A model generated the notes under the pieces. The model did no database searches and was not told where the DNA came from. It saw only the letters and a list, made by a program, of their open reading frames with translations. 64,000 nt of DNA. Source: a virus. The stretch's first letter is position 1, and every line of letters starts with the position of its first letter. Location: positions 62,001 to 126,000 of IMG/VR virus record IMGVR_UViG_3300042922_000850; one strand, written 5' to 3'. A program made the translations under genes and the position numbers. Below, one piece after another: positions 589 through 62,318 of this stretch.

Positions 589-630
589 GTATAAGAAATA
601 AAAGGAAATTGACTTTCCTTTTATTTCTTA
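589..630 (+). promoter_or_regulatory. class I promoter motif plus 5' hairpin
   Basis: GTATAAGAAATAAAA at 589-603 is copy 1 of the repeated class I motif. The bases from 592 form a perfect 17-bp inverted repeat (592-608 with 614-630, 5-nt loop), ending 3 bases before the GGAGG of the next gene. The hairpin would sit at or near the 5' end of the transcript. Confidence 0.6.
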
Positions 631-645
631 TTAAGGAGGTAATTT

Positions 646-939
646 ATGTGCAATTGTGTCAAGGAAGCAGAAGATAAGTACAAAGAATTTTATTTAAAGC
701 AACATCCTGAAAGTGCCCCTGAAAGCGTTAATGTATATTGCGACTGCATAGCGTTAATTTTCGGGAAGAACGGGGGTACGAGATTTTCAATACCGTTCTC
801 AGTTACAGATACCACGAAGTCAGCAAGAAGGCCAAAAGTGAAAAAGATTAATGTTCTTCCCCAATATTGTCCGTTCTGCGGCGAAAAAAGAGAGGAGAGT
901 GATCTCAATGAAGAAGGACACACAAGCGTTCTGCAATAA
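646..939 (+). CDS. small zinc-ribbon-like hypothetical protein
   Basis: This 97-aa protein starts at an ATG 8 bases after AAGGAGG. It has C-x-C near the N-terminus, a second CDC at about residue 32 and CPFCGEK at about residue 75, which together could bind one zinc. It is first in an operon of small genes that continues to about 4.15 kb. The overall arrangement is common in short phage proteins of Gram-positive hosts; function is unknown. Confidence 0.75.
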   Translation: MCNCVKEAEDKYKEFYLKQHPESAPESVNVYCDCIALIFGKNGGTRFSIPFSVTDTTKSARRPKVKKINVLPQYCPFCGEKREESDLNEEGHTSVLQ

Positions 940-1051
940 ATTTAATTGCGAAGATAACATTAAAGGAAAGTGCTCTTCGCAAAAAATAACCGGGAAAGAT
1001 GGCCGGTGCCTTTTTTACAACAGGAAGACCGTCGTTAAAGGGGGTAGCTAG
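908..1051 (+). CDS. short cysteine-rich hypothetical protein
   Basis: This 47-aa protein starts at ATG 908, preceded by GAGGAGAGTG, and overlaps the previous gene by 32 bases. Cysteines in CNKFNC, KGKC and GRC resemble a compact metal-binding knuckle. An in-frame ATG at 851 has no ribosome binding site and lies deep in the upstream gene, so I rejected it. Function unknown. Confidence 0.6.
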   Translation: MKKDTQAFCNKFNCEDNIKGKCSSQKITGKDGRCLFYNRKTVVKGGS

Positions 1052-1052
1052 T

Positions 1053-1247
1053 TTGCTTAAAGAAATGGAAGATAAACGTAAAGAGGCTATTCACAAACTA
1101 GCTACTTGTTCACTGTGTATCGTGTGTAGTAAGGGGTTTTCAGAAAAGGATTTGGAGGATGAGAACTTCCACCATATAGTGACTAAGCGTAGTACAGATT
1201 TATTTGCACATAAGCATTGTTTGGTGGATGGGCAATCAAATAAATGA
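1053..1247 (+). CDS. small Cys/His-rich hypothetical protein
   Basis: A TTG start at 1053, right after GGGGGTAGCTAG and the stop of the previous gene, gives 64 aa. CSLCIVC, then HH and HKHC, form a C-x2-C ... H-x2-C type zinc site such as is seen in treble-clef or HNH-like folds, although no HNH catalytic signature is clear. It lies inside the small-gene operon. Function unknown. Confidence 0.6.
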   Translation: MLKEMEDKRKEAIHKLATCSLCIVCSKGFSEKDLEDENFHHIVTKRSTDLFAHKHCLVDGQSNK

Positions 1248-1267
1248 ATTACAGGGAGGATATTATT

Positions 1268-1618
1268 ATGAATGCCGTTGAAGTAATCTTCGACTTATTG
1301 GATGAGGAGCAGAAACCTTCTGTTTTCGTATTTGTAGTGACAAAGGAGACGAAAACAGACTATCTGGCAAAAAGAAAGTCAGAGGACAGGCCGAGCAGAA
1401 GGTTTTGTAAAGAGGGTCTTGATAAAATCATACGTCAAAAGCCATTATATTATGTTTATCGGTATCTGACAGAAGAAACCCCGGAGCAAATTAATACATC
1501 TGAAAAAATGAAAGATGTCGGCAAATTAATGATGAGCGAGATTGGCTACGACATTCAATCTTACAACCATCAATTAACAAAGCTATCGAATCACTTTGTT
1601 AATTTCATCACGCATTAA
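1268..1618 (+). CDS. hypothetical protein
   Basis: I chose ATG 1268 because GGAGG lies 8 bases upstream; the ATG at 1244 overlaps that ribosome site. The 116-aa product is charged, without membrane segments or cysteines, and not recognised. Confidence 0.7.
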   Translation: MNAVEVIFDLLDEEQKPSVFVFVVTKETKTDYLAKRKSEDRPSRRFCKEGLDKIIRQKPLYYVYRYLTEETPEQINTSEKMKDVGKLMMSEIGYDIQSYNHQLTKLSNHFVNFITH

Positions 1619-1629
1619 CGGGAGGGCTT

Positions 1630-4205: not shown

Positions 4206-4248
4206 GTATAAGTAAGAAAAGAGGGAATAATATTATTCCCTCTTTTCT
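4206..4248 (+). promoter_or_regulatory. class I promoter motif plus 5' hairpin
   Basis: GTATAAGTAAGAAAA at 4206-4220, preceded by TTCTC. Bases 4215-4231 pair perfectly with 4232-4248 (17 bp, no spacer), so the motif's A-rich tail is one arm of a hairpin upstream of the ribosome binding site. Confidence 0.6.
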
Positions 4249-9337: not shown

Positions 9338-9383
9338 GTATAAGTAATAAAAGGAAGATATCGATATCTTCCTTTTATTACTT
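9338..9383 (+). promoter_or_regulatory. class I promoter motif plus 5' palindrome
   Basis: GTATAAGTAATAAAA at 9338-9352 after ATCTG. From 9342 to 9383 the sequence is a perfect 42-nt palindrome whose left arm contains the motif's tail. It ends ahead of AAGGAGG. This is the clearest case of the motif-plus-hairpin arrangement. Confidence 0.6.
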
Positions 9384-9402
9384 ATTTTAAGGAGGAAAGT
9401 TT

Positions 9403-15168: not shown

Positions 15169-15208
15169 TCCTCCCATTTCTTGTATAAGTAATAAAAGAA
15201 ATGGGAGG
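15169..15208 (+). promoter_or_regulatory. class I promoter motif between inverted repeats
   Basis: GTATAAGTAATAAAA at 15183-15197. CCTCCCATTTCTT upstream (15169-15181) pairs with AAGAAATGGGAGG downstream (about 15196-15208), so the motif sits in a loop and the ribosome site GGGAGG sits in the stem. Confidence 0.6.
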
Positions 15209-16228: not shown

Positions 16229-16243
16229 GTATAAGAGATAAAA
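16229..16243 (+). promoter_or_regulatory. class I promoter motif
   Basis: GTATAAGAGATAAAA after CATTTCTT, 14 bases before AAAGGAGG of the next gene. Confidence 0.6.
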
Positions 16244-16269
16244 TATAAACAATAAAGGAGGAATTAGTT

Positions 16270-18951: not shown

Positions 18952-21900
18952 TTATTCTTCGAAAGACTGTGCGCTCTCTGAATAGATTTCACCACCAAGG
19001 TCGTGGGAAGGCGCTGACATTTCGGTTACATTGCTAATTTCTTTTGGGGTTATTCCACCAAGTGCACCACACTCCGGGCAATAGCCTAAGTTATCTGGTT
19101 GACCTTTGTAACTGCACACTTCACAATTAATGTCTTTTAATCCGGTTTTAGGATCAATTGTGGGTTCCTCAGGAACAACATTACTTTCTTTCTTTGCCTC
19201 TTCCTTTGTCGGAACATTCATCTCTGCCTCTTTAAACAGTTCATCAAGTTCTTCGGAAGCTAACTTCGAGACTTTTACATTTTTGACCGCATTTTTTATC
19301 GCTTTGACTCCGGCTCCTGCAAGTGCTCCAATTCCTACACCTGCAGCTCCTCCTGCGATAGCGTTGCTTGCAGCTTCACTACCATAATCAGATGGTAGTG
19401 CGGTTGGATTAACTTCTTTTGCTTGGTCAACCGACTTTTGATAAGCTGCTCCACTACCCATAAGACCGCCAATAGCTGCACCACTAAGTGCGCTAGCTTC
19501 TTTAGCGAGTTCATCGAGTTCTTCAGATGCATGCTTAACCGCTTTTGATTTTGCCACATCTTTTACAAGTGCCGGTAAAGATGTAACGATATTGCCAACT
19601 GCTCCCGCACTCGCACCCAATAAACCACCTTTTACCGCTCCTTTAAGAACAGCTTTGGGGTTCTCTTCACTTTCTTTTTTTTTACCTTCTATACCACCAA
19701 GAACTGTTCCTACTCCGGCACTAAATGGAATGAGGCCGGCACCTGCTTCTTTCTCCGCAGACTCATCGGTTGCTTCAAAAGATTGTTTTTCCACATGATT
19801 TTTAAATTCTTCTTGCATTTTTGCCTTAGCTGCTTCAAATTTCTGAGTCCCTTGCTCTGATGCTTTCTGAACCACCTTAGCGCCAAGTGCACTACTAGCC
19901 AAATTCGCGCCTAGCCCAATTCCGGCTCCAGCTAACGCACCTTTAGCAACGCCTTTTAAAGTTTTGTCACGATCGTTTTCTTTGGAAGTTTTAAGACCAC
20001 CAATTGCCCCGCCAACAATTGCACCAGGGAGAACAAACCCTGCTTCTTTCTCCATAATCTCCGTCATATCATATTTTGCCGAACAAACATCGTATGCGAC
20101 TTTATGAAGGTGATCGATTTGTTCAATAGCGGCTTGAATATAATTAGGGCTAACTACTTGGTTACGGTTTTTATACTGCATTACCTTTAATTGCATAAGG
20201 TCACAAGCAACTCTCTCTAATATATCACGATTTTCTATAATATCCTTAGATACTTCATAAATTCTCGGATAATTATGAGTTTCATTAGCTGTTGATGCAA
20301 CCTTTTCTGCGAAGAAGGATGATAAGCTCATAATCTTTGCTACTTCCAAAGCTGATTGCGATTCTCTTTCTAAAGCAATCTTCTCAAACACAGACGATAA
20401 TGTCTTACCCTCAGATGCAACGTTACCTAATTGTGCTGCGATGTCTTTAACTGCACTCGGTGCTCCGCTAAGTCCATCCGATAACATGCTTGCGATTACA
20501 GAAGTTGCAAGAACACCTGCAAGTTCTTTGGGTTTTACCATTGACTTTACGGTATTTTGTATCTTTTTACCTGCAAGAGATTGAACTCTTGCGCCTTGAA
20601 GTGCTTCGATATTCGGATTAGCAGGTAAAGCATAGGTCATTTGAGGATTGTTATTTACTTTGAAGATGATCTCTTGAAACTCCGCCTGATTAAATCCAAG
20701 GAGTTTAAGAACTAACTTTAAATCGTCTTTGGAAATTCTTGTATATGTCTTTACAAATCGTTTCAATATAGCTTTTTTTGTATCAACGTAATTAATTTCC
20801 ACATCGTATGCGCCGAGTTGCTTATCTCTGCATACGATTTTAATTTTATTCTTTTCTACTGCGGCAACCTTTTCAAAAGTATCTTCGTAGCTTTCTACGT
20901 AAGCAAGTTTATCGAGATCTTCTTTGTTCTGAAGATAATCTTTAATAATGCCCTTGATTAAGATTACTCTGGTTTCCGGATCCGTTGCAAGGACAAGGTT
21001 GGTTTCTGTCCTTGCGGGCCCCTGCGTTGCATAAGGGTTTTTATCAACTTTATGATAATTGATACAGATAGAACCTTTTGACATTAGGTTAGATAGCTTA
21101 AATTCGTCCATTGCAAGTTCTTTGGATTTCTTCGCAATGAAATCACCATAGGGCATTTCAAAGAACTTTGCCCCATCAAGAGTGCAAAGATTAACTCTGA
21201 TATTAACATTTAAGATATTCTGAGTTTCACTTGTTGTTAATAAGTTTGCGATTTCTGAGTTATCATAAATGGGCGATAACTCATAGCTTTTTGTTGAGAT
21301 ATCGTTTTTGCGGTCACCGCTACCATAAGTTCTTTCGTTTATCCAATTTACTTTTGAGGGGAATAAAGCTTTGTCTCCATCGAATGCCATGAAGATATCG
21401 CCTTCTTGCAATGTGGACAGGCTCTCCATCTTTATGGAAAATTTTGTCTCTGGCGCTTTTAAGCAAAGGAAACGTTCCGAGTTGCTGAGAATTTTCACAC
21501 GAGCATCGGCGGTGATGACTAATTTTACCTTCTTCGGAGCTTTGTCAGCAAAGGACATAAAATTATCGACAACAATGCCGTTAGTCATGGAAATCTCGTT
21601 ACCATTTTTCTCAGGAAAAGCAATGACTGTGCCGTTTGGTAATTTAATAGCATCGTCATATTGTAAGTTCTTCGCCTTTTCAAATAATTTAAGTTTCTCT
21701 TGGTCATCTGGGACGTTAATCTCAGCCGCCATTTTCTCCATTTCAAGTTTCACTTCTTCTGAAGCTTTTCTCTCAAACTCTTGATTAAGAACTTTCAGGT
21801 CAGCTTCAGTGAATTCTTTAATTGTTGCAGCCTTTTCAAGGAGTTCATCAATCTTCTCTGCAGCATAGATATAATTTTGGCCAGATGGACTACTATGCCC

Positions 21901-22461
21901 AACCGCTTGATCTCTAATTTGCAGAACGTTTCCAAGAAATCCTGTACTTGTAGCTGGGTTGTTCCTGGTATCAAGACCAACATAAGGGTCATCTGTATTA
22001 TTTTGGCGGTCTTTCTCCTGTAATTGCTGTATAGCGTAAACGACCTTTTTCATGTTTTCTCTAGAGTAAGGAACTCTGGTTCCTTCGGATTGAATAACAT
22101 CAAAAGGGATAAGTTCTCCATCAATAACCATAAACGGGAGTTCAATTACTTTGCCAAAATATTTGATTGCAACTACACCATTCGCATCTGAAACATAATC
22201 AGAATGTGCTTTATCCATCTCTTCGGGGTTTAGTTGTATAGCCACATTCGGTGTGCTTGGGAAGAAGGCTAATTCATTAAGCACGTACTTTCTAATAAAA
22301 GTCTCTATATTATCTGCTGTCGGCTGATAAATATCTATCCCTGCATATTTCTTAATAGCAAGATCCTCTTTGCTTAAAGAATAGTCTCTTGCTTCTTTCT
22401 CAAAGCCAAAAGACAAAGATGCTCCAAAGGCATTCGATATATTTCTCAATCTCTTATCCAT
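18952..22461 (-). CDS. large protein with glycine-zipper segments and C-terminal zinc ribbon
   Basis: 1169 aa from the ATG preceded by AGAGGTG; a GTG four codons upstream overlaps that site. Residues 1 to about 640 look globular. About residues 860-1080 contain at least six Gly/Ala-rich zipper-like hydrophobic segments (GAIVGGAIGG, AGAGIGLGAN, GVGTVLGG, GGLLGASAG, GAAIGGLMGSG, GVGIGALAGAG) separated by charged linkers with KEA or EKEAG. The C-terminus has CEVC ... CPEC. The pattern suggests a membrane-inserting or injected virion protein, but no homologue is recognised. It has its own extended -10 promoter. Confidence 0.85.
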   Translation of the reverse strand: MDKRLRNISNAFGASLSFGFEKEARDYSLSKEDLAIKKYAGIDIYQPTADNIETFIRKYVLNELAFFPSTPNVAIQLNPEEMDKAHSDYVSDANGVVAIKYFGKVIELPFMVIDGELIPFDVIQSEGTRVPYSRENMKKVVYAIQQLQEKDRQNNTDDPYVGLDTRNNPATSTGFLGNVLQIRDQAVGHSSPSGQNYIYAAEKIDELLEKAATIKEFTEADLKVLNQEFERKASEEVKLEMEKMAAEINVPDDQEKLKLFEKAKNLQYDDAIKLPNGTVIAFPEKNGNEISMTNGIVVDNFMSFADKAPKKVKLVITADARVKILSNSERFLCLKAPETKFSIKMESLSTLQEGDIFMAFDGDKALFPSKVNWINERTYGSGDRKNDISTKSYELSPIYDNSEIANLLTTSETQNILNVNIRVNLCTLDGAKFFEMPYGDFIAKKSKELAMDEFKLSNLMSKGSICINYHKVDKNPYATQGPARTETNLVLATDPETRVILIKGIIKDYLQNKEDLDKLAYVESYEDTFEKVAAVEKNKIKIVCRDKQLGAYDVEINYVDTKKAILKRFVKTYTRISKDDLKLVLKLLGFNQAEFQEIIFKVNNNPQMTYALPANPNIEALQGARVQSLAGKKIQNTVKSMVKPKELAGVLATSVIASMLSDGLSGAPSAVKDIAAQLGNVASEGKTLSSVFEKIALERESQSALEVAKIMSLSSFFAEKVASTANETHNYPRIYEVSKDIIENRDILERVACDLMQLKVMQYKNRNQVVSPNYIQAAIEQIDHLHKVAYDVCSAKYDMTEIMEKEAGFVLPGAIVGGAIGGLKTSKENDRDKTLKGVAKGALAGAGIGLGANLASSALGAKVVQKASEQGTQKFEAAKAKMQEEFKNHVEKQSFEATDESAEKEAGAGLIPFSAGVGTVLGGIEGKKKESEENPKAVLKGAVKGGLLGASAGAVGNIVTSLPALVKDVAKSKAVKHASEELDELAKEASALSGAAIGGLMGSGAAYQKSVDQAKEVNPTALPSDYGSEAASNAIAGGAAGVGIGALAGAGVKAIKNAVKNVKVSKLASEELDELFKEAEMNVPTKEEAKKESNVVPEEPTIDPKTGLKDINCEVCSYKGQPDNLGYCPECGALGGITPKEISNVTEMSAPSHDLGGEIYSESAQSFEE

Positions 22462-23148: not shown

Positions 23149-23163
23149 GTATAAGAGATAAAA
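23149..23163 (+). promoter_or_regulatory. class I promoter motif
   Basis: GTATAAGAGATAAAA after CTTTTCCA. It is the first promoter to the right of the GGACA repeat field and precedes ACAGGAGG. Confidence 0.6.
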
Positions 23164-23186
23164 CAAAACACAGGAGGAATAAAATT

Positions 23187-23381
23187 ATGAGACAAATAAG
23201 TAAAAAGACAATGGCAAAGTTAGACATTGTATCCGGAGTAATAGAAGTAACAGTGGGAGTTTTAGGAATGGTTACATTGGGAAAATCACCAAAGAGTTTG
23301 ATTGCAGCAGCATCATTGGTATTTGGAGCAGCAAATGTATGCTTTGGCATAGACGAAGCAGTGGAAGCAGCACAGGAATAA
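23187..23381 (+). CDS. small hydrophobic membrane protein
   Basis: 64 aa, GGAGG upstream. Two hydrophobic stretches (about residues 13-31 and 38-55) after a basic N-terminus. A-ending codons dominate. It is a single-gene cassette with its own promoter and terminator. Function unknown. Confidence 0.65.
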   Translation: MRQISKKTMAKLDIVSGVIEVTVGVLGMVTLGKSPKSLIAAASLVFGAANVCFGIDEAVEAAQE

Positions 23382-23395
23382 ACACAAGGATAGAG

Positions 23396-23423
23396 AAACA
23401 AAAGGACATATGTCCTTTTGTTT
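23396..23423 (+). terminator. terminator hairpin containing GGACATATGTCC
   Basis: AAACAAAAGGACAT and its complement form a perfect 28-nt palindrome. Its centre (23404-23415) is also a GGACAT palindrome like those in the repeat field, so it may be both terminator and binding site. Confidence 0.65.
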
Positions 23424-23431
23424 CCGTTTCA

Positions 23432-23507
23432 ACCACGCCCACCACGTTGTTAATGATATCCGATGCCCAGCTTTATTCCTGCTGTTTTTCTAGTATAAGA
23501 GATAAAA
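23432..23507 (+). promoter_or_regulatory. composite cassette promoter region, copy 1
   Basis: ACCACGCCCACCACGTTGT at 23432-23450, a degenerate GGACA palindrome at about 23454-23468, then CTTTATTCCTGCTGTTTTTC and GTATAAGAGATAAAA at 23493-23507. Element-to-motif distance is 61 bp. Confidence 0.6.
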
Positions 23508-23527
23508 CAAAACACAGGAGGAATAAA

Positions 23528-23752
23528 ATGAAAACAATAAAAACAATAATCGCATTTTTAAAGATAATAGGAAAGGTATTATTTAGTACAAGAGAAGAAA
23601 AAGAAAATATGAAATCAGTATTGAAAGCATATAACGATGCAGTACAGTCATATATGAAAGAAAATAATGTGAGTAGGGAAGTAGCAGAAGATGAAATGAA
23701 TGCAAGACTTCAGCGAGAAGCAATGAAAATGGAAAACAAGACAAGAGCGTAA
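23528..23752 (+). CDS. small amphipathic helical protein, paralogue A1
   Basis: 74 aa from the ATG after GGAGGAATAAA. A hydrophobic/basic N-terminal helix (about 1-18) is followed by a charged helix with AYNDAVQSYMKENNVSREVA. The same pattern (Y-N/D-x4-YM-x-E, then A-E-x-E/Q) recurs in proteins at 27802 and 29349, so the three are paralogues. Function unknown. Confidence 0.65.
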   Translation: MKTIKTIIAFLKIIGKVLFSTREEKENMKSVLKAYNDAVQSYMKENNVSREVAEDEMNARLQREAMKMENKTRA

Positions 23753-23762
23753 GGCTCTTGTC
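23740..23762 (+). terminator. cassette terminator
   Basis: GACAAGAGC / GCTCTTGTC hairpin with loop GTAAG that includes the stop codon of the preceding gene, followed by TTTCG. Confidence 0.65.
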
Positions 23763-23772
23763 TTTCGCTTCA

Positions 23773-23848
23773 ACCACGCCCACCACGTTGTCAAGGACAT
23801 CAGGTGTCCAGTTTTATTCTCGTCGTTTTTCTAGTATAAGAGATAAAA
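23773..23848 (+). promoter_or_regulatory. composite cassette promoter region, copy 2
   Basis: ACCACGCCCACCACGTTGT (23773-23791), GGACATCAGGTGTCC (23795-23809), then a TTTTATTCTC...GTTTTTCT spacer and GTATAAGAGATAAAA (23834-23848). The palindrome ends 25 bases before the motif. Confidence 0.65.
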
Positions 23849-23870
23849 TAAACAAATGGAGGAATTAAAA

Positions 23871-24164
23871 ATGGGTATGAGTATGGCAGGAAGAATTGTT
23901 GTATTAACAGAAAACGGAGCATTTGCAGTAGAAGAAGTAAAAGTTAAGGTTATAGAAGAATCAAGACAGTTTATAGTAAAGGAATGGGATGATACATTAA
24001 GTAAAGTAACAGCGTATGTAAGAGAAGATGGTTATGTAGATATGATTTACGAAGACGGGGTATGTCACACAGTAAATAAGGTATATTTTGAATCAATAGC
24101 ATTTGAAGGTGAGCTTGAAAATCAGAAGCAGATGGCAATAGAAGCAAAATTAATCAAAGCATAA
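23871..24164 (+). CDS. hypothetical protein
   Basis: 97 aa. ATG 23871 is 8 bases after GGAGG; an ATG at 23856 overlaps that site. Beta-rich, acidic and soluble, without a membrane segment. Single-gene cassette. Not recognised. Confidence 0.65.
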   Translation: MGMSMAGRIVVLTENGAFAVEEVKVKVIEESRQFIVKEWDDTLSKVTAYVREDGYVDMIYEDGVCHTVNKVYFESIAFEGELENQKQMAIEAKLIKA

Positions 24165-24170
24165 ACAAAA

Positions 24171-24186
24171 GGGAGCGAAAGCTCCC
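24171..24186 (+). terminator. GGGAGCGAAAGCTCCC terminator, copy 1
   Basis: GNRA-type tetraloop hairpin (loop GAAA) preceded by A-rich and followed by T-rich sequence. The identical stem-loop recurs at 25548 and 25857. Confidence 0.75.
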
Positions 24187-24202
24187 TGTGTCTTTTTCCT
24201 TT

Positions 24203-24286
24203 ACCCCGTCCACCTCGTGCACGAGGTTCTCTCGGACATGCCGTGTCCGTTTTATTCTCCATGTTTTTTTCCTATAAGAAAGAAAA
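24203..24286 (+). promoter_or_regulatory. composite cassette promoter region, copy 3
   Basis: A diverged ACCCCGTCCACCTCG element (24203-24217), GGACATGCCGTGTCC (24234-24248), a TTTTATTCTCC spacer and CTATAAGAAAGAAAA (24272-24286). The palindrome ends 24 bases before the motif; the motif's first base is C instead of G. Confidence 0.6.
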
Positions 24287-24316
24287 TAAAACAGAAAGAT
24301 AAAGAGGTAAGAGATT

Positions 24317-24535
24317 ATGAAAAAAGTAATGAAGGCAACAGTAATAGGATTAGGAATATTTATGATGGGAATGTATAGTTATGAAAGAGGAGTAAAGGAT
24401 ACAAAGGAAATATATGAAAAGGTATTAAGTAATCGAAACGAAGAATTAAATCAATTATTCAAAGAGGTATTGGATGAAAAGAATGAGAAAATTAGAGCAT
24501 TGAAAGCAGAAATATATAGGATGTCAGAGGCGTAA
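24317..24535 (+). CDS. small membrane-anchored coiled-coil protein
   Basis: 72 aa. Transmembrane helix at about residues 6-22, then a Glu/Lys-rich helix to the end. GAGGTAAG precedes the ATG. The coding segment 24484-24501 is perfectly complementary to the downstream untranslated segment at about 24554-24571, so the transcript can fold back on its 3' end. Confidence 0.65.
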   Translation: MKKVMKATVIGLGIFMMGMYSYERGVKDTKEIYEKVLSNRNEELNQLFKEVLDEKNEKIRALKAEIYRMSEA

Positions 24536-24589
24536 GCCTCGCATCTTTTTCTTCCAATGCTCTAATTTTCTCCGCTCACCATGCTGACC

Positions 24590-24642
24590 GGACATCCCAT
24601 GTCCACTTTATTCTCCCTGTTTTTCTCCTATAAGAAAGAAAA
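24590..24642 (+). promoter_or_regulatory. cassette promoter with GGACA palindrome, copy 4
   Basis: GGACATCCCATGTCC (24590-24604), a TTTATTCTCC spacer, then CTATAAGAAAGAAAA (24628-24642). Spacing of 24 bases, as in copies 2 and 3; the ACCACG element has decayed to CTCACCATGCTGACC. Confidence 0.6.
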
Positions 24643-24664
24643 CAATATTAGGAGGTAACACAAA

Positions 24665-24952
24665 ATGAAATTAGAAGAGTTCGGAATACAGGCAGTATTG
24701 GAAGTAAAAAGAATTAGAGTAACACCATGTTATGAAAGTAAATGGGAAATTATGTTAAAGTTAGATGACAGTGAAAAGGTATATGGGGAAAATATAAAAA
24801 ATCACGGGTATGTAGAAATATATAAAGGAAAGGCAATCGTAGGGCTAACGAGGTTAGACACTGAAACACAGGAAAAAATGGAAGATTTGGTACATATGTG
24901 TAAAACGGTAAAAGAAGTATGTGATTTATATTTTGAGGTTTATTATGACTAA
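24665..24952 (+). CDS. hypothetical protein
   Basis: 95 aa, AGGAGG upstream. Soluble, with alternating strands (IQAVLEVKRIRVTP, WEIMLKL, YVEIYKGKAIVGLTR) and a helical C-terminus. Single-gene cassette; not recognised. Confidence 0.65.
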   Translation: MKLEEFGIQAVLEVKRIRVTPCYESKWEIMLKLDDSEKVYGENIKNHGYVEIYKGKAIVGLTRLDTETQEKMEDLVHMCKTVKEVCDLYFEVYYD

Positions 24953-24969
24953 GGGCATTTGCCCTTAGT
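24951..24969 (+). terminator. cassette terminator
   Basis: CTAAGGGCATTTGCCCTTAG hairpin overlapping the stop, followed by TTTTATTTT. Confidence 0.75.
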
Positions 24970-24990
24970 TTTATTTTCCCTATTTTCCAC

Positions 24991-25005
24991 GTATAAGTAA
25001 GAAAA
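24991..25005 (+). promoter_or_regulatory. class I promoter motif
   Basis: GTATAAGTAAGAAAA after TATTTTCCAC. No ACCACG or GGACA element upstream. Confidence 0.6.
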
Positions 25006-25031
25006 TAAACAAAAGAAAGAAGGAATAAATT

Positions 25032-25541
25032 ATGAAATCAAGCATTAAGATAGTAGGAGCAACAACGGTAACAGCAACAGTGGCATTAGTAATTGGAATG
25101 ATGGCAAAGAGAAAAGTGAATCATCGAAGAAAAGAGAAAGAAGGATATTTATTAAAAGAATATTATGAGCACGGATATAGTGAAGGGCATAAGGACGGAT
25201 ACGAAGAGGGACAGCAGAAAATGGAGATTAAACCGGAGAAAACGGGAAGAAGTTATAGTTATGAGAAGTTCATGGACACTTTAAGAAGAAGTGAAGCAGG
25301 TGAGTTTGATTACACCGGATGGAAGATGGTAACATCGGAACAGTCAGGATTTGACAGAAATTATTACAACGGAAGAGTTGTATGGGGATATGATGGAGCA
25401 CCAGATGATGAGTTTTACTTCACAGTAGTAACAGAAGATGGGCACAACGCAAGGATAGTAAGCGTTATGAGAGCAGATGGAACAGAAATCAATTATGATG
25501 AATCATTTATTGTACAGTATTTTATACTGAGAACGTTTTAA
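25032..25541 (+). CDS. membrane-anchored protein with GYxxGxxxG repeats
   Basis: 169 aa. Transmembrane helix at about residues 6-24, basic stretch, then YYEHGYSEGHKDGYEEGQQ (about 46-64), a glycine-every-four repeat also seen in the cassette proteins at 27486 and 35965. The C-terminal domain (about 85-165) is soluble and beta-rich. A cytoplasmic domain tethered to the membrane is likely. Function unknown. Confidence 0.65.
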   Translation: MKSSIKIVGATTVTATVALVIGMMAKRKVNHRRKEKEGYLLKEYYEHGYSEGHKDGYEEGQQKMEIKPEKTGRSYSYEKFMDTLRRSEAGEFDYTGWKMVTSEQSGFDRNYYNGRVVWGYDGAPDDEFYFTVVTEDGHNARIVSVMRADGTEINYDESFIVQYFILRTF

Positions 25542-25547
25542 ACAAGA

Positions 25548-25563
25548 GGGAGCGAAAGCTCCC
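25548..25563 (+). terminator. GGGAGCGAAAGCTCCC terminator, copy 2
   Basis: Identical stem-loop to 24171 and 25857, followed by TTAAACTTTT. Confidence 0.75.
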
Positions 25564-25584
25564 TTAAACTTTTCTCTTTTTCTC

Positions 25585-25599
25585 CTATAAGTAAGAAAA
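25585..25599 (+). promoter_or_regulatory. class I promoter motif
   Basis: CTATAAGTAAGAAAA after TTTTTCTC; C replaces the usual first G. Confidence 0.55.
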
Positions 25600-25624
25600 C
25601 AACGAAAGAGAGGATTTAAAGATT

Positions 25625-25846
25625 ATGGACAACGATAAAGTAATTAAAGAATGTAACATTGAAAGACAAACAGGATTTGCGGCAGAAAACAAAGTAAACG
25701 TAGTTTACGAGGACGGAATGGCAGAGAAGATATTAAATTATTACCCGGATGAATTATCATTCAGCGAAGAAGAATTTATAGGATTAACGAAGCAGCAGGC
25801 GAAGGATTTATTCCATAAAAAAGACATAGCATATTTACAAAGCTAA
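25625..25846 (+). CDS. hypothetical protein
   Basis: 73 aa, acidic, soluble. AGAGGATT upstream. VNVVYEDGMAEKILNYYPDELSF resembles the YEDG stretch in the 23871 protein, a weak similarity. Single-gene cassette. Confidence 0.6.
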   Translation: MDNDKVIKECNIERQTGFAAENKVNVVYEDGMAEKILNYYPDELSFSEEEFIGLTKQQAKDLFHKKDIAYLQS

Positions 25847-25856
25847 ATAAATAAAA

Positions 25857-25872
25857 GGGAGCGAAAGCTCCC
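25857..25872. terminator. GGGAGCGAAAGCTCCC terminator, copy 3
   Basis: Third identical stem-loop, between convergent genes; it is symmetrical enough to end the minus-strand gene as well. Confidence 0.7.
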
Positions 25873-35811: not shown

Positions 35812-35812
35812 G

Positions 35813-38770: not shown

Positions 38771-39175
38771 ATGGTATACACTACATATTTTGGGAGACTT
38801 AAAAAGATACCTGTTCTTTCAAGAAAAATTATTGTAGCAAGATACGTGCCACCACAGTTCAATCTGAAAGCTGCGGCAAATACATATCACTACCCGCAGC
38901 TTTCTCCATCAACATCTTTATTAAAATCATATAAAGATGGGTTATGCGATTGGGATACTTTTGCCGAGGAATACCGACAGGAAATGGAGAATCGCCCAGA
39001 CCTTATAAAATGTATCGATGCCATGGCAAAGTATATAAAAGAACATGGTGATGAAGATATTTTTTTAGTCTGTTATGAAAAGGATCCAAACTCTTGTCAT
39101 CGGTATCTGTTGGCGCTTCATTTAAAAGAAAAATATCAAATTGATTGTGAGGAGTGGAGAGATGGAAGTATTTAA
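38771..39175 (+). CDS. DUF488 family protein
   Basis: 134 aa, starting directly after the previous stop. ARYVPP (about 23-28), PSTSLLKSYKDG (about 45-56), then FLVCYEKDPNSCHRYLLA (about 98-115) are the DUF488 signature, including the C-x8-CHR arrangement. The family is of unknown function, sometimes proposed to act in stress or DNA repair. Confidence 0.85.
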   Translation: MVYTTYFGRLKKIPVLSRKIIVARYVPPQFNLKAAANTYHYPQLSPSTSLLKSYKDGLCDWDTFAEEYRQEMENRPDLIKCIDAMAKYIKEHGDEDIFLVCYEKDPNSCHRYLLALHLKEKYQIDCEEWRDGSI

Positions 39176-39452
39176 AATTGAAAAGGATTTAAGTTTTGAC
39201 CTTGAGTTCTGGCTTGAAAAGTTAGCTGTGAAATCAAATGACATCCTTTTAATGAAAACATCTAGTGAAATACCTGATGTTGTGACAAAAAATGTAGTAG
39301 AACAATTTGCCGCATTAGTACAGGGTGAAGAGAAATTCGAAGGCGTAAAGATGTTTATCATCCCAAGCTCAGGCATAGACATATCGTTGTTAACTGACCT
39401 GCAATTAGAAGAAATGGGATTAATGCGCATCCCAAAAAAGAAAAAGAAATAA
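39162..39452 (+). CDS. hypothetical protein
   Basis: 96 aa from ATG 39162 (GGAG upstream), overlapping DUF488 by 14 bases. Acidic body with a basic KKKKK end. Unrecognised. Confidence 0.6.
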   Translation: MEVFKIEKDLSFDLEFWLEKLAVKSNDILLMKTSSEIPDVVTKNVVEQFAALVQGEEKFEGVKMFIIPSSGIDISLLTDLQLEEMGLMRIPKKKKK

Positions 39453-39486
39453 CTTTAAAACATTAGCGAAAGTAGGCAAATCTATT

Positions 39487-39738
39487 ATGGCAAATATCAT
39501 TCAGTTTCCTACAAAGAAGATTAAAGTTAGTCTTGATATGATGCGTTTGATCGGGTCTCCAGTGCCACACCGGATAATTGTGGCGGCCATAGAATTAGAG
39601 TTAAAGAATTGCAATTGTTCTTATCGCGAGCAACATGATGATATAGCCAACGGAGGAACAAAATTAACTTGCATTGTTGATAAAATGCCAAGGGATAATG
39701 AGATGTTAGGGATACGTTGGGAAGTAATAGAAGAATAA
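39487..39738 (+). CDS. hypothetical protein
   Basis: 83 aa. Weak ribosome site (GTAGG). Starts with MANIIQFPTKK, an opening often seen in short phage regulators, but no domain follows that I can name. Confidence 0.6.
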   Translation: MANIIQFPTKKIKVSLDMMRLIGSPVPHRIIVAAIELELKNCNCSYREQHDDIANGGTKLTCIVDKMPRDNEMLGIRWEVIEE

Positions 39739-39749
39739 AGGAGGATCTT

Positions 39750-40097
39750 ATGCCAAGCTTTGATGAATTGGGAAGGCCAGGGAAGTGTGATGTATGTAGT
39801 AAGGAGGCAAATGTAGTTGTTCTCTCATCAAGTATGGGGCCAATAAGTTGGGCTTACTGCGAAAATTGTGCGACTAAAAGATTGGAACCATACGGCGGTA
39901 TGATAGCATATATTTCATCGTTAAATTACCCAGATGATGTTAATCCGGATTATGTAAAGGAAATCCGAAGAATATTAAAAGAATTGGGCAAAACAGAAGA
40001 GGAATTTATTGCAGACTGTAAAAAATCCAATGAGGAATATACGGAATATCTTAAAAATCAGTCGGAAGAACTTTGTGAAGAGAGTGAGGAAGAATAA
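39750..40097 (+). CDS. zinc-ribbon hypothetical protein with acidic tail
   Basis: 115 aa from ATG 39750 after AGGAGG. CDVCSKEA (about 13-20) and YCENCATKR (about 36-44) form one zinc ribbon. The C-terminus is a Glu-rich helix. Probably a protein or RNA adaptor (inference). Confidence 0.65.
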   Translation: MPSFDELGRPGKCDVCSKEANVVVLSSSMGPISWAYCENCATKRLEPYGGMIAYISSLNYPDDVNPDYVKEIRRILKELGKTEEEFIADCKKSNEEYTEYLKNQSEELCEESEEE

Positions 40098-46373: not shown

Positions 46374-46417
46374 GTATAAGAAATAAAAGAGGATGAACAA
46401 TATCCTCTTTTATTTTA
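46374..46417 (+). promoter_or_regulatory. class I promoter motif plus 5' hairpin
   Basis: GTATAAGAAATAAAA (46374-46388); AAATAAAAGAGGAT pairs with ATCCTCTTTTATTT across a 7-nt loop. Precedes the Spo0A-C-like gene. Confidence 0.65.
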
Positions 46418-46441
46418 TTTAATTAAAAGGAGGATATAAAA

Positions 46442-46982: not shown

Positions 46983-48098
46983 ATGAGTTTCGATGCAAGG
47001 GAAACCAACAAGAATAACGTCATAGCAAAATTATTAGGCGAAAATGGAACAAGTAGTAAACTACTACAATTCACTCAAGATAATCCGGGAGAAAGAATAG
47101 GCAATTTTAACAATTTAAGGGATATGGCGTATGATATTCATAAGAACAGCAAGGATTATACGGTAGCCTTAAAGGATATGGTAGCTTACTCAGAGATGCG
47201 CGATGATATTGAAAATCTGTATTTGGGTGTAGACTTACCGGAGAAATATTTTGATAGTAAGTTCCTGTTTAGCAACAACGGTTTATCTGGAATTTGCGGA
47301 CAATTAGATATTCCTGCTGCATACATAAGGAAATGTTTAGAAGAAAATGTTACAGAGCATGCAGCTCACACTCTTAATTATTGGATAAGCCGCGCAAAGA
47401 ACAGTGCAAAAGAGATGCTCCTTCGCACCACTTCGTCCCGTATTCATGGCGTACTATCAAGTAAATATTCTGTTTTTGATGATCATGAAGTATTTGATAT
47501 AACGGAAGGTATCCTTGGTCAGCGCAACAATTACGAGGTAAAAAACTATCACCTAGACCCTGAGTTCATGAAGCTTCGTATCGTATCTAGAGATAAAGTT
47601 AATATCAACGGCAGACCACTAAGCTTCGGTTTTGATATTAATAATTCTAGAGTGGGTAGAAGTTCGTTAGAATTGAGCGTAATTATCTTCGACCATATCT
47701 GTCGTAACGGAATGATCATGGGTGGCGGCGCAGGTTTATTTTATAATAAGAGACATGTCGGCATAAGCAGAGAGACTTTCGTTACAGAGTTTACCGACAT
47801 GCTAGACAATGCCCCTGACACAGTCGCTTTTATCCAAAAGGCTATAAATTCGGCAGGCAATGAAAAATTAAACAGTGAGACAATTCAGCGTTATCTGGAT
47901 AAGTTTAAGGCCGAGAATATGTCTAAGAATATCAGCGGCAGGGTAGAACAAATGTTTGCCGAAAAATACGATAACAATTTATTCGGATTTGTAGGTGCGG
48001 TAACAGAGGTTGCACAGGACTACAATTTAGAAGTCAGAGAACGAATGGAAAAATTCGCAGGCACATTAATATATCAGTCCGGTAGAAAAATCTCTTAA
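46983..48098 (+). CDS. DUF932 phage/plasmid-like protein
   Basis: 371 aa from ATG 46983, GGAGG upstream. LSGICGQLDIPAAYIRKCL (about 95-113), RTTSSRIHGVLSSKYSVFDD (about 145-164), and the later SLELSVIIFDHICRNGMIMG follow the DUF932 family, common in plasmids and phages near recombination genes. No enzymatic role is known. Confidence 0.8.
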   Translation: MSFDARETNKNNVIAKLLGENGTSSKLLQFTQDNPGERIGNFNNLRDMAYDIHKNSKDYTVALKDMVAYSEMRDDIENLYLGVDLPEKYFDSKFLFSNNGLSGICGQLDIPAAYIRKCLEENVTEHAAHTLNYWISRAKNSAKEMLLRTTSSRIHGVLSSKYSVFDDHEVFDITEGILGQRNNYEVKNYHLDPEFMKLRIVSRDKVNINGRPLSFGFDINNSRVGRSSLELSVIIFDHICRNGMIMGGGAGLFYNKRHVGISRETFVTEFTDMLDNAPDTVAFIQKAINSAGNEKLNSETIQRYLDKFKAENMSKNISGRVEQMFAEKYDNNLFGFVGAVTEVAQDYNLEVRERMEKFAGTLIYQSGRKIS

Positions 48099-48113
48099 AA
48101 CTAAATATTATTT

Positions 48114-48143
48114 CTTCTGACGGGTAATTTTACCCGTCAGAAG
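48114..48143 (+). terminator. intrinsic terminator
   Basis: CTTCTGACGGGTA / TACCCGTCAGAAG with loop ATTT, between DUF932 and the next operon. Confidence 0.75.
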
Positions 48144-48155
48144 TCGTCATAACCG

Positions 48156-48164
48156 TGCTATAAT
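48156..48164 (+). promoter_or_regulatory. class II extended -10 promoter
   Basis: CATAACCGTGCTATAATAAAA region: TGC followed by TATAAT at 48159-48164. Heads the SbcC-N / dnaE operon. Matches the site before the primase gene (62399). Confidence 0.65.
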
Positions 48165-48199
48165 AAAATCTCATTAAAAGTTAGGAAGGAGAAAGATTT

Positions 48200-48607
48200 A
48201 TGTCTAAATTGGTAAGCGCTAAATGCAAAAAATGCGGGAACTATCTTAATTTTGATATTGGAAATATGGATAAAGAAGAAGCTGAGAACTCGCTTAAAGC
48301 AATCCGCAGTTGGCAATGTTCTGCCGGCAATCATGTAGAATTGATGTCACCCTTTGATTTATACGAATTTGATTGGGATAATATCACAGAGAACGAACCC
48401 GTAACAGAAGAACAGTTTCAAGCAGATTTAAAAGAAAAGTTTAAGGAAGTATATTCTTCTGACGAATTTGGAGAAGCATATAGTATTGATAGCTTTGCTT
48501 TAGGGAAGTGCCTTTGCCACCCTCGCAATGGTGACGAGGATAGTATGATCATCTTTGACTTTATTCACGGACCAAGCGGAAAGAGATATTATATATCCAT
48601 GTTATAG
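48200..48607 (+). CDS. zinc-finger hypothetical protein
   Basis: 135 aa, AAGGAG upstream. CKKCGNYLNFD (about 8-18) with CSAGNH (about 40-45) can bind zinc; the C-terminal half includes GKCLCHP. First gene of the replication operon. Function unknown. Confidence 0.65.
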   Translation: MSKLVSAKCKKCGNYLNFDIGNMDKEEAENSLKAIRSWQCSAGNHVELMSPFDLYEFDWDNITENEPVTEEQFQADLKEKFKEVYSSDEFGEAYSIDSFALGKCLCHPRNGDEDSMIIFDFIHGPSGKRYYISML

Positions 48608-56489: not shown

Positions 56490-56519
56490 TCTCAAATATT
56501 TCTCGTATAAGAAAGGTGA
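56466..56519 (+). promoter_or_regulatory. hairpin overlapping a class I promoter motif
   Basis: CGAGAAATATTTGA (56466-56479) pairs with TCAAATATTTCTCG about ten bases on, whose last bases are the start of CTCGTATAAGAAAGG (motif from 56505). It may terminate the upstream transcript and start the next. Confidence 0.5.
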
Positions 56520-56670
56520 AGCGGGGCAACCCCGCCTGGAAACGATAATATACAGGCTTGTTATATAGTATGTTTGTAAGGTTAGCAAATAAAACAAATA
56601 ACCATATTATCAACGAAATACAAAATATAACTATAATACTAGGCTCTTGGCGGTTTGCCAAGAGCTATTT
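56512..56670 (+). ncRNA. candidate noncoding RNA of about 160 nt
   Basis: Between a class I motif and a terminator-like hairpin (56643-56665) there is no ribosome site and no credible frame. The segment opens with a GGGGCAACCCC stem-loop (about 56522-56533), has an AU-rich middle and ends in GCTCTTGGC-GGTTT-GCCAAGAGC, followed by TATTTATTT. The promoter-body-terminator layout supports a small RNA; structure and target are unknown. Confidence 0.5.
56643..56665 (+). terminator. terminator of candidate ncRNA
   Basis: GCTCTTGGC and GCCAAGAGC with a 5-nt loop, followed by TATTTATTT. Confidence 0.7.
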
Positions 56671-56688: not shown

Positions 56689-56731
56689 GTATAAGAAAGA
56701 AAAGGTAGAGAAGACACGATTCTCTACCTTT
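56689..56731 (+). promoter_or_regulatory. class I promoter motif plus 5' hairpin
   Basis: GTATAAGAAAGAAAA; AAAGGTAGAGAA (56701-56712) pairs with TTCTCTACCTTT (56720-56731). Heads the operon with the acidic paralogue family. Confidence 0.65.
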
Positions 56732-60209: not shown

Positions 60210-60214
60210 ATAAT

Positions 60215-60844
60215 TTGTATGCTGTTGAAGAATCTAAAGAAACGCAACTATGCAGTTTCTACGAGGGGCGATTAGATGAATTGCTCGATGACATGTTTCT
60301 CGGGGAAAGCTGGATCGAGACACCTGAAGATTGGGAGCGCAAGGAAGAGAAGTTGATGGAAATCTATCAGGAGGTATGGACCAATGAGCTTGTTACAAAA
60401 ACAGCCGTGCCGGAATTATCAGATATTTTAGATGCTGTTTACGATCACAATATGGAAATACAATCAGAAATTGTGGCTCTCGATCTTGAATACGGCCAAT
60501 ATGGTGAACGGTCATTTTATGTAGAAGACTTTTACGACGATAAAGAAGATGCCCAAGAAGCTGTAGAAGAGGCTTGGGAAAACGACCTCAATATAGAGAC
60601 TAATTATATGTACAACACAGATAGTTTGGTATTAAAAATATTGCATAAATTAAAATGCTCTTTCTTGGCAAACGAACAGACATTGCACGAATTCTTTTGT
60701 GAAGACTGGCCAGAGGGGTGTGATGCAGTAGTTGGTGATTGCCAGAATTTATTGCTTCCAGAATGGCATTTAGCGTCAATGCAAGAATATGAACACTCTG
60801 TGACAGACGAAGAAAGAATATTGGTACAATTGGTATCGAGGTGA
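60215..60844 (+). CDS. acidic paralogue family protein 5
   Basis: 209 aa with a TTG start after GGGGG. Motifs VPELSDILDAVYDHN, IVALDLEYGQYG and VGDCQNLLLPEWHLASM. The Glu/Asp content is especially high, with no compensating basic patch. Function unknown. Confidence 0.7.
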   Translation: MYAVEESKETQLCSFYEGRLDELLDDMFLGESWIETPEDWERKEEKLMEIYQEVWTNELVTKTAVPELSDILDAVYDHNMEIQSEIVALDLEYGQYGERSFYVEDFYDDKEDAQEAVEEAWENDLNIETNYMYNTDSLVLKILHKLKCSFLANEQTLHEFFCEDWPEGCDAVVGDCQNLLLPEWHLASMQEYEHSVTDEERILVQLVSR

Positions 60845-60848
60845 CGAC

Positions 60849-61214
60849 ATGAGTTATTTTTTAATACCGGACTACGGGACTCTTAATATAGGCTGTCCGT
60901 CAGGAGAAGATATATTAATCTATATGTACCGGGCTTACATGGATTGTTGCAAGCCGCATAAGGTATTTGGTTATCTCTCCGATACAGCGCCAAGTTTATT
61001 TGAGTTTTATGATAGTCTGACAGACCAAGTGCACTCATCAGATCGCAGAACATTTTTATTCCGAGGGATTGCATTAAACCGGGGAGAGCTAAGCGATCCA
61101 TATTTTGTGGAGATGCTTTTAAAAGACTTCCTGTTTCAATATACGAGAGATGATGGGATTGAGGGATGCGATTGCCAAAATATAATACTACAGGAGATGG
61201 TTGAAGATGAGTAG
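60849..61214 (+). CDS. acidic paralogue family protein 6, shortened
   Basis: 121 aa, GAGGTGAC upstream. It retains only the C-terminal DCQNIILQEM signature and a helical body (TAPSLFEFYDSLTDQV), and is much shorter than members 2-5. Overlaps the next gene by 8 bases. Confidence 0.6.
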   Translation: MSYFLIPDYGTLNIGCPSGEDILIYMYRAYMDCCKPHKVFGYLSDTAPSLFEFYDSLTDQVHSSDRRTFLFRGIALNRGELSDPYFVEMLLKDFLFQYTRDDGIEGCDCQNIILQEMVEDE

Positions 61215-61518
61215 AGAAAGCAAGATAATCGAGGAGAAGATACTCTCAGAATACTTCAAGATTATAAGTGAAGGATTTGTTCCTCAAACAAAAGCTTTAA
61301 GAGAAAAGGTAAAGTACCGTATGGATGTAGAATGTTTTGATCTTATATACGGTCAAACATTTGAAGACGAGATAACGGAAAACGCAATACACGATGTTCT
61401 GTCGCTTTATAAGCATGTGCATTATCATGACGGAAAGCGGTTTTTCGAATGTCAAAACCCATTATTTTTCGAGTGGTTTTCTTATCAGAAAATTCTACTG
61501 CTAACACAAAATCCTTAA
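61207..61518 (+). CDS. acidic paralogue family protein 7, shortened
   Basis: 103 aa from ATG 61207, AGGAGATGG upstream. Contains CFDLIYGQTFEDE, the equivalent of the LDLxYGQ motif in members 3-5, and FECQNPLFFEWFSYQKI as a diverged C-terminal signature. The tandem array ends here. Confidence 0.6.
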   Translation: MSRESKIIEEKILSEYFKIISEGFVPQTKALREKVKYRMDVECFDLIYGQTFEDEITENAIHDVLSLYKHVHYHDGKRFFECQNPLFFEWFSYQKILLLTQNP

Positions 61519-61545
61519 TTATAAATGAGAGAGGATATATAGACT

Positions 61546-62286
61546 ATGATTAATACAAAATATCAAGCAGTAGAATGTTTTACGTTTTTGCAAAAGATTT
61601 GCTCCAGAAATGGATGTGAGGAATGTGAGGAGAAGTCATGCGGAGTTTTGTTTGTCGGCCAACACGCTTACTCTGCTACTGCCAATATTGTTGGGAGAAT
61701 AGGTGTTAATGATAATCTTCCGATGGACAATCCAATTTTCTGGAGCTACGGCAGGGAGGGAGAAATTAATCGCCCAAGCCAAGATAAGTTTCTACTAAAC
61801 ACGAAGGGATACATTAAAAATAATCCATCCATGGGAGCATTTTTAAGCAGCGGTTTTATAGATCGCTTTGATCATTACTTGAACAAAGCTCCTGCGAATG
61901 ATTTCCGTATTCGCAGGAAAGATCTATTGGATCACTTAGACAGTCAAGGCTTAAGTTCGGCAAAACAAAACAAAATGAAAATACAAATTGGCTCAGCATT
62001 AACGGACGTGACATTTAATGCTGAGCCAATTAAATGGACAAAGGCAATGGATAGTCCATTTTCATTTGAGTTGCCTCGCTTTGTATACCCTGGTACATAT
62101 CAAAAAAGCAATATCGATAAAAACGTGGTCTGTTCTATCAATTTGCTATCTTTCTATGAAATTATTGCAAATGGGTTTACAGAGTATGAAATTATCCGTA
62201 TTAAATACGACAACGCTGGCCCTGTTGTTATCGAGGGAAAAGCAAGAAATAAAAGTGAGGTTTTCTTTGCTGTATCTCAAATATGA
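61546..62286 (+). CDS. hypothetical protein, possible sliding-clamp-like fold
   Basis: 246 aa, AGAGGAT upstream. N-terminal Cys-rich CSRNGCEECEEKSC (about 19-32). The C-terminus AGPVVIEGKARNKSEVFFAV is like the last strand of PCNA/beta clamps, and the length equals that of PCNA, but the evidence is thin. The coding sequence carries a 16-bp perfect inverted repeat (61987-62002 with 62015-62030) and a 9-bp one at 61891-61917. Located just before the primase. Confidence 0.6.
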   Translation: MINTKYQAVECFTFLQKICSRNGCEECEEKSCGVLFVGQHAYSATANIVGRIGVNDNLPMDNPIFWSYGREGEINRPSQDKFLLNTKGYIKNNPSMGAFLSSGFIDRFDHYLNKAPANDFRIRRKDLLDHLDSQGLSSAKQNKMKIQIGSALTDVTFNAEPIKWTKAMDSPFSFELPRFVYPGTYQKSNIDKNVVCSINLLSFYEIIANGFTEYEIIRIKYDNAGPVVIEGKARNKSEVFFAVSQI

Positions 62287-62303
62287 TAACATAAAATTCT
62301 ATC

Positions 62304-62318
62304 GTATAAGTAACAAAA
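62304..62318 (+). promoter_or_regulatory. class I promoter motif with imperfect hairpin
   Basis: GTATAAGTAACAAAA; AGAGTATAGGA..AAGTG downstream pairs imperfectly with CACTTCCTATA..TACTCT (about 62324-62380). It lies about 95 bp upstream of the class II site, so the primase may have two promoters. Confidence 0.55.

Follow-up and report, generated by a model that had tools for sequence, protein, structure and literature searches.

The window considered here, a stretch of 64,000 nucleotides (positions 62,001 to 126,000 of the IMG/VR record IMGVR_UViG_3300042922_000850), carries many copies of a TATAAG-centred word, and the question that these raise is what, if anything, reads them. A sequence-only reading had counted 36 copies on the plus strand and suggested that a sigma factor or RNA polymerase (RNAP) specific to the phage reads them; that suggestion gains support here, in that the phage encodes both and RNAP-bearing relatives carry the motif. 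The best explanation, to which we give a probability of about 0.74, is that the copies are early promoters of a fused RNAP delivered by the virion together with its own sigma factor, here called sigmaV.

The motif and its position

All 36 copies were recovered where that reading had placed them, 31 as GTATAAG, three as CTATAAG and two as GTACAAG. A search with GTATAAGNAATAAAA, allowing up to two mismatches, gave 39 matches in the window, 37 of them on the plus strand, compared with 2.9 in shuffles (sd 1.6, max 7); each of the two minus-strand matches (619 and 9373) is the distal arm of a palindrome whose start lies in a plus-strand copy. Across the whole 166,758-bp record (G000), a weight matrix found 43 sites on the plus strand and 0 on the minus strand, which is the outcome that an opposite-strand control predicts for promoters. 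The measured logo, TTTTCTnGTATAAGWAATAAAAnAA, contains the TTTTCT that had been seen before most copies, along with a weak T-run 19–22 bases upstream of the motif G. None of the 36 copies departs from G at the final position of the –10 element, and conservation runs for 10 bases downstream. The reported lack of a –35 element was also borne out, TTG at 17-bp spacing occurring in just 2% of sites and no such element appearing at any spacing. The TATAAG core differs from TATAAT by one base.

The copies, all on the plus strand and named below as putative class I promoters, are spread unevenly over the window. Downstream of several of those that head long operons there is a palindrome extending back into the motif: the copies at 589–604 and 36577–36592 are each followed by an 18-bp stem, and that at 9338–9353 by a 21-bp stem, all starting inside the motif. 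Stems of 15, 16 and 12 bp follow the copies at 4206–4221, 46374–46389 (upstream of a DNA polymerase III alpha gene cluster) and 56689–56704. Further copies lie at 15183–15198 and 16229–16244. The copy at 23149–23164 is the first in a run of small-gene cassettes, and beyond it stand those at 23493–23508, 23834–23849, 24272–24287 (CTATAAG), 24628–24643 (CTATAAG), 24991–25006, 25585–25600 (CTATAAG), 26881–26896, 27178–27193, 27445–27460 (GTACAAG), 27742–27757, 28390–28405 (GTACAAG), 28619–28634, 28892–28907, 29179–29194, 29573–29588, 31623–31638, 31746–31761, 32057–32072, 32334–32349, 33653–33668, 34041–34056, 34303–34318, 34743–34758, 35632–35647 and 35853–35868. The copy at 56505–56520 (GTATAAGAAAGGTGAA) keeps the GTATAAG core and has a different 3' half, AAAGGTGAA, resembling the type found in G020 and in Salmonella phage Arash; the last, at 62304–62319, has a primase-like gene about 700 bases further on. 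For the DNA between 44000 and 56000 of the window, no close match was found in the phage collection.

The claim that nearly all copies are intergenic holds for 35 of the 36, in a window that is 76% coding (P about 1e-20), as an in-gene control predicts for promoters. The single genic site (23493) is scored so solely because the start codon of the called ORF is probably placed too early. The copy said to overlap a stop codon is that at 28619, where an ORF ends at 28624, and the one said to abut a tRNA is that at 31623, which would serve a tRNA-Ile (31639–31712, plus strand) starting 16 bases after the motif start. Of the proposed checks on orientation and distance, the first gave one strand only across the whole genome, and the second a fixed short distance to start codons, mostly 36–45 bases, though a few leaders run to hundreds of bases. 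Of the G000 sites, 40% have a hairpin resembling an intrinsic terminator in the 75 bases before them, against 3% of random positions, and the same trend is seen in four relatives. Copies also head monocistronic cassettes, and in G000, G015 and G001 the motif sits directly upstream of tRNAs, which argues against a translation signal.

The strand that bears the motif carries replication genes and small early-type genes; the genes behind it (class I) include replication genes, a second sigma gene, the tRNA and numerous small genes of takeover type. Structural genes, for the most part on the opposite strand, have host-like promoters, TTG-N17-TATAAT (class II), from which they are probably transcribed later by the host RNAP. 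The motif is almost certainly a start signal for genes expressed at one stage of infection, probably the early one.

The phage polymerase and the sigma-like proteins

The search of the remaining genome for a multisubunit-type RNAP, which the sequence-only reading had called for, found a fused beta-beta' enzyme of 2301 aa in one ORF outside the window (G000:25094–31999, minus strand). It has all Rpb1/Rpb2 domains and the catalytic NADFDGD, aligns to bacterial RNAPs with E about 1e-115, and retains the length of the clamp coiled-coil region. Nine Pfam RNAP domain families were matched in the one chain, which sets it apart from the reduced RNAPs of the crAss/P23-45/YonO kind. This is the single RNAP match in G000, where neither a second RNAP nor an alpha domain was detected. 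Relatives have full-length RNAP fusions that are 43–52% identical. The gene adjoins the portal gene, and has the same placement within the structural module of relatives.

The same search for sigma factors gave two sigma-like proteins. One is a classical sigma of 201 aa (G000:49545–50150, plus strand) with complete regions 2 and 4, whose gene stands behind a motif copy at 49408. It was considered as the reader of the motif and rejected: it is probably not the reader because the closest motif-bearing relatives, as far as their sequences go, have no such gene (it was not found in G001, G005, G012, G014 or G015). Small HTH matches resembling sigma region 4 occur in 77-aa frames of G005 and G014. 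The other protein, sigmaV (G000:154055–154945, minus strand, in the tail module and outside the window), is a divergent sigma70-like protein orthologous to gp10 of Arash. By profile, sigma70 regions 2, 3 and 4 are all matched; the family profile meets SigA at 9e-16, and at 4e-9 against SigA structures with the Arash row and the two most distant others left out. The G000 sequence alone is weak (Sigma70_r3, E = 0.015), and the structural model has a low pTM (0.38) and low whole-chain TM scores; the leading fold matches are all sigma factors or their complexes except for one integrative model labelled RPSB-RPOC. Homologs of sigmaV occur in all RNAP/motif genomes that have that region.

Motif and polymerase in relatives

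Of the 14 RNAP-carrying relatives with enough sequence, 13 show enrichment of a TATAAG-like word on the replication strand, G039 being the one in which a de novo word search gave no motif. That search, which as a control recovers T4's TATAAATA, finds a TATAAG-like core on the replication strand of Arash and of further relatives whose RNAP identity ranges from 46% to 26%. The flanks drift as the RNAP diverges: the 15-mer is missing in G016 and in most relatives at 26–33% RNAP identity, and exact GGTATAAGNAA is at background level in most distant RNAP relatives. The expectation that the exact motif would be present in every RNAP relative was thus wrong, drifted versions being found in most of those examined, and the putative promoter family can be written as GTATAAG, GTTATAAG, GGTATAAG, GGSATAAG, GGTATAAC and GGTATATA. 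Five relatives found via RNAP or terminase have strand-biased motifs (forward/reverse 16/0, 0/2, 0/8, 0/31 and 1/6), and seven contigs chosen solely for one match to the motif plus a ribosome-binding site have that match and no others. The pairing of RNAP and motif is a co-occurrence among related phages that could partly reflect common descent.

Arash (OQ632216) is a distant member of this lineage, with homologous portal, terminase, capsid protein and RNAP, and a gp10 homologous to sigmaV. Its RNAP is split inside beta' (1525 + 606 aa), whereas that of G000 is one chain, and it carries the GGTATAAG motif on its replication strand in 30 intergenic copies. Mass spectrometry of its particles found the RNAP gp206 to be the most-detected protein (3516 spectra), with 1210 spectra for gp216 and 467 for the sigma gp10, and its authors cautioned that abundant enzymes may be carried through purification along with the particles; the word 'promoter' is absent from the text of that paper (PMC10585845).

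Which enzyme reads the motif?

The mechanism that we infer, covering promoter function, recognition and timing, builds on the motif, its strand rule, the terminators upstream, the fused RNAP, sigmaV and their conservation in relatives, all of which are read from sequence. The motif would be the early-class promoter of a contractile-tailed phage, recognised by the single-chain 2301-residue RNAP with sigmaV as its guide. By analogy with Arash, both proteins are probably inside the particles of the G000 phage; packaged there, they would enter with the DNA, and class I genes could therefore be transcribed at once after delivery. The structural genes would be transcribed later by the host RNAP from TTG-N17-TATAAT. 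Against this scheme stand the weakness of the G000 sigmaV sequence and model, the background level of exact GGTATAAGNAA in most distant relatives, the lack of a motif in G039, the possible co-purification of enzymes with Arash particles and, in G014, an RNAP-portal block that is on the motif strand.

An unlikely variant keeps the phage RNAP as reader and has it made after infection, class I then being middle genes that follow an immediate-early phase of the host RNAP. The host-like TTGCCC-N17-TATATT sequence upstream of the RNAP gene is in its favour, since the host RNAP could make the enzyme from it. Set against this are the position of that gene beside the portal gene in the structural module of relatives, the Arash homolog and its sigma in purified particles, and the presence in class I of replication genes and of the short ORFs that early regions typically hold. 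Rather improbable, too, is that the host RNAP core reads the motif with a phage sigma (the 201-aa protein or sigmaV), as with SPO1 and T4 late genes, and that the phage RNAP serves other genes. A sigma with complete regions 2 and 4 is indeed encoded, itself behind the motif copy at 49408, and sigmaV is sigma70-like in all three regions; but five motif-bearing relatives (those named above) yielded no 201-aa sigma, motif occurrence tracks the RNAP lineage, and the structural genes have ordinary TTG-N17-TATAAT promoters, so that the phage enzyme is left with class I as its natural target.

Two further readings dispense with phage factors at this step or with promoters altogether. That these are ordinary sigma-A-type promoters of the host that lack a –35 element, or promoters of an alternative host sigma, is suggested by the closeness of TATAAG to TATAAT. 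This seems very improbable given the invariant final G, the conservation downstream of it and the lack of TTG at any spacing, and also given that the opposite strand uses canonical promoters and that a related core occurs in a phage of Salmonella, where the host sigmas are presumably unrelated. An RNA-level processing or translation signal would suit the restriction to the plus strand, the leader position and the stem-loops after some copies. It is scarcely credible for copies that stand just after terminators, just before tRNAs or at the head of monocistronic cassettes, and that have a conserved T-rich block upstream of TATAAG.

Comparison with known systems

The nearest precedents for early promoters read by a virion RNAP are in jumbo phages of the phiKZ/AR9 type (PMC7598289). 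As there, a phage-specific, AT-rich conserved block of about 10 nt lies upstream of early operons, and the phage has its own cellular-type RNAP together with a motif in one orientation before presumed early operons; the phiKZ/AR9 RNAP is particle-borne. Unlike phiKZ and AR9, which have several split subunits in two sets (virion and non-virion, with split beta and beta'), late promoters without host-like elements and genomes above 200 kb, the present phage has one RNAP, in which full-length beta and beta' are fused, and a sigma70-like partner that can be recognised as such, in a 166,758-bp record that is possibly incomplete. If our preferred reading is true, the enzyme would differ from known virion RNAPs in depending on a sigma factor. 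We lean, with less assurance, towards the wider proposal of a deep myophage lineage with a particle-borne single-chain holoenzyme (beta-beta' with a sigma70-type factor), a promoter family that drifts with the enzyme, and structural genes under host-type promoters. Promoter family, fused full-domain RNAP and virion sigma would then form one system, and related start signals in the cultured Salmonella phage Arash make the idea testable. The lineage would provide a natural alpha-free single-chain enzyme of bacterial type, for working out the essential parts of RNAP, and many naturally occurring promoter-sigma pairs for studying the evolution of promoter specificity.

One-chain phage RNAPs are also known from crAss-like phage phi14:2 (gp66) and Thermus phage P23-45; these are minimal two-barrel enzymes, whereas the G000 RNAP keeps the full complement of domains found in cellular beta and beta'. 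Pre-early genes of P23-45 are transcribed by its virion RNAP, and late genes by the host RNAP (PMC10770324). A Caudovirales lineage with deeply branching multi-subunit RNAP consists, like G000, of tailed phages encoding cellular-type beta and beta'; promoters and sigma factors are not mentioned in the text of that report (PMC7481178). The literature matches listed for GTATAAG as a phage promoter looked unrelated, and there was no match for YerA41 with promoter. The T4 late promoter TATAAATA is likewise a –10-like element without a –35, although its sequence differs from the TATAAG element and it serves a different gene class; it is read by the host RNAP with gp55 and gp33.

Placement of the motif

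The sequence-only reading had listed 36 plus-strand GTATAAG-type sites (class I sites, proposed early promoters), and all 36 are present in the window where it placed them. The window holds 39 matches to the 15-mer, about 13-fold more than the 2.9 found in shuffles. It spans bases 62001–126000 of a 166,758-bp IMG/VR virus record (G000; the records are metagenomic and possibly incomplete). Scanning that whole record with a position matrix built from every window site except the one at 56505 (35 sites) gave 43 sites, and 43/43 are on the plus strand. The consensus logo reads TTTTCTnGTATAAGWAATAAAAnAA, and 19–22 bases upstream lies a weaker T-run. That the sites are mostly intergenic and lack a –35 element was also borne out: 35 of 36 window sites fall outside genes called by a simple purpose-made caller, in a window that is 76% coding (P ~1e-20), and TTG at 17-bp spacing accompanies 2% of class I sites versus 3% of background. 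Terminator-like hairpins lie upstream of 40% of the G000 sites versus 3% of random places. One site does adjoin a tRNA, 16 bases upstream of it, and tRNAs in two relatives (G001 and G015) are also preceded by the motif, at ~17–23 bases. The motif might have been a translation signal; strand and intergenic placement, the lack of a –35 element, the upstream hairpins and the motif–tRNA spacing fit a promoter instead.

Window 23149–36592 is densely packed with ~25 small genes. Many look monocistronic; each has a class I promoter of its own, and often a terminator-like hairpin lies just upstream. The site at 56505–56520 keeps the core, its 3' half (AAAGGTGAA) resembling the versions in G020 and the distantly related cultured Salmonella phage Arash; it is perhaps a relic or variant promoter. 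The tRNA-Ile at 31639–31712 has a predicted AAT anticodon (A at position 34), which is unusual in bacterial isoleucine tRNA.

The RNA polymerase and its relatives

G000 encodes a tail sheath, major head protein, portal, terminase and DNA polymerase III alpha. The RNA polymerase (RNAP) gene that had been thought worth seeking in the rest of the genome was found as a single 2301-aa ORF (25094–31999, –), a fused beta–beta' enzyme encoded between the portal and DinG-like helicase genes. It matches nine RNAP domain families, Rpb2_3 through Rpb1_5, and contains NADFDGD. Searches of G000 found neither a second RNAP nor an alpha dimerisation domain. In relative G014 the RNAP–portal block (91766–107711) is on the replication strand and the terminase and capsid genes are on the other; compared with G000, the block is apparently inverted.

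Five virus records with 41–52% identical RNAP (that of G001 being cut off by the contig end) all carry the motif, strand-biased, and seven contigs picked solely for one motif plus ribosome-site match have one copy apiece. A profile search gave 47 RNAP-bearing loci. In the genomes open to examination, a mechanical word search of leader regions, which on T4 recovers the known late element TATAAATA, reported as leading replication-strand words GTATAAGATATTAA in G016 (RNAP 46% identical), GTTATAAGTAAAGTGAA in G020 (33%), GGTATAAGAA in G025 (28%), GGnATAAG in G043 (29%) and G040, GGTATAAG in Arash, GGTATAAC in G027 and GGTATATA in G041; in G039 it gave nothing convincing. G005, G001 and G012 have the G000-type motif. 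The motif or a related core thus occurs in 13 of 14 relatives counted (G001, G005, G012, G014, G015, G016, G020, G025, G027, G039, G040, G041, G043 and Arash), a co-occurrence with RNAP drawn from within one lineage. Core sites in nine tabulated genomes are intergenic on the replication strand, with nearly none intergenic on the other; for Arash the figures are 30/30 versus 1. Because exact GGTATAAGNAA alone is at background level in most of the distant relatives, the conserved feature is, as judged from these sequences, a drifting core and not a fixed word.

Candidate sigma factors for reading the motif

The rest-of-genome search likewise yielded the anticipated sigma-like gene, outside the window: a separate 201-aa classical sigma (G000:49545–50150, +) preceded by its own class I motif. 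It is unlikely to be the reader, because it was not found in the five motif-bearing relatives with 41–52% identical RNAP; G016 and G025 encode related proteins (463 and 271 aa, respectively). Standing behind a class I promoter, it is possibly a switch to later genes.

The other candidate is sigmaV, a divergent sigma70-like protein. Published particle proteomics of Arash detected RNAP gp206, which gave the most spectra (3516), together with gp216 (1210 spectra) and sigma gp10 (467 spectra) (PMC10585845). Homologs of gp10 occur across the lineage, including a 296-aa protein in the G000 tail module (154055–154945, –), and sigmaV matched in 4/4 extra genomes of the word search (3e-20 to 9e-64). 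The family alignment has sigma-like regions 2, 3 and 4; its profile, with neither Arash nor the two most distant members in the build, matches SigA structures at 4e-9. The predicted fold of the G000 homolog matches sigma factors, with low whole-chain TM scores. We call sigmaV of G000 a putative virion protein because Arash gp10 was detected in particles.

Proposed division of transcription

On the favoured reading, RNAP and sigmaV would enter the cell with the phage DNA and fire the class I promoters, and structural genes would be left to host RNAP through TTG-N17-TATAAT promoters. Jumbo-phage virion RNAPs offer a parallel, their early promoters being phage-specific AT-rich motifs of ~10 nt centred near –10 (PMC7598289); P23-45, in which host RNAP transcribes the late genes, is a precedent for the second step (PMC10770324).

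If TATAAG is the –10 element, transcription would start in the AAAA at motif positions 12–15. Perfect palindromes of 16–21 bp start inside the motif and extend beyond its end at copies leading long operons (589–640, 9338–9390, 36577–36620 and 46374–46420). Single-gene cassettes lack them. Of 41 G000 sites, 7 are overlapped by a stem of 12 bp or more, versus ~0–1% of random positions. Several of the operon-leading palindromes extend back to motif position 2. A simple hairpin at the 5' end of the RNA would account for them only if transcription started further upstream.

TATAAT sites before structural-strand genes have TTG at 17-bp spacing in 33% of cases versus 3% of background, and TTG-N17/18-TATAAT promoters, clearly distinct from the motif class, occur in structural-strand leaders of six related genomes. 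Structural-strand proteins are also over-rich in [FILMV]xKxA (14 versus 3.1 expected in one 1169-aa protein), in relatives too; rich loci are window 18952–22461 (–) and G000:10475–12943, 38771–39985 and 47796–48590. These could be prohead protease cleavage sites.
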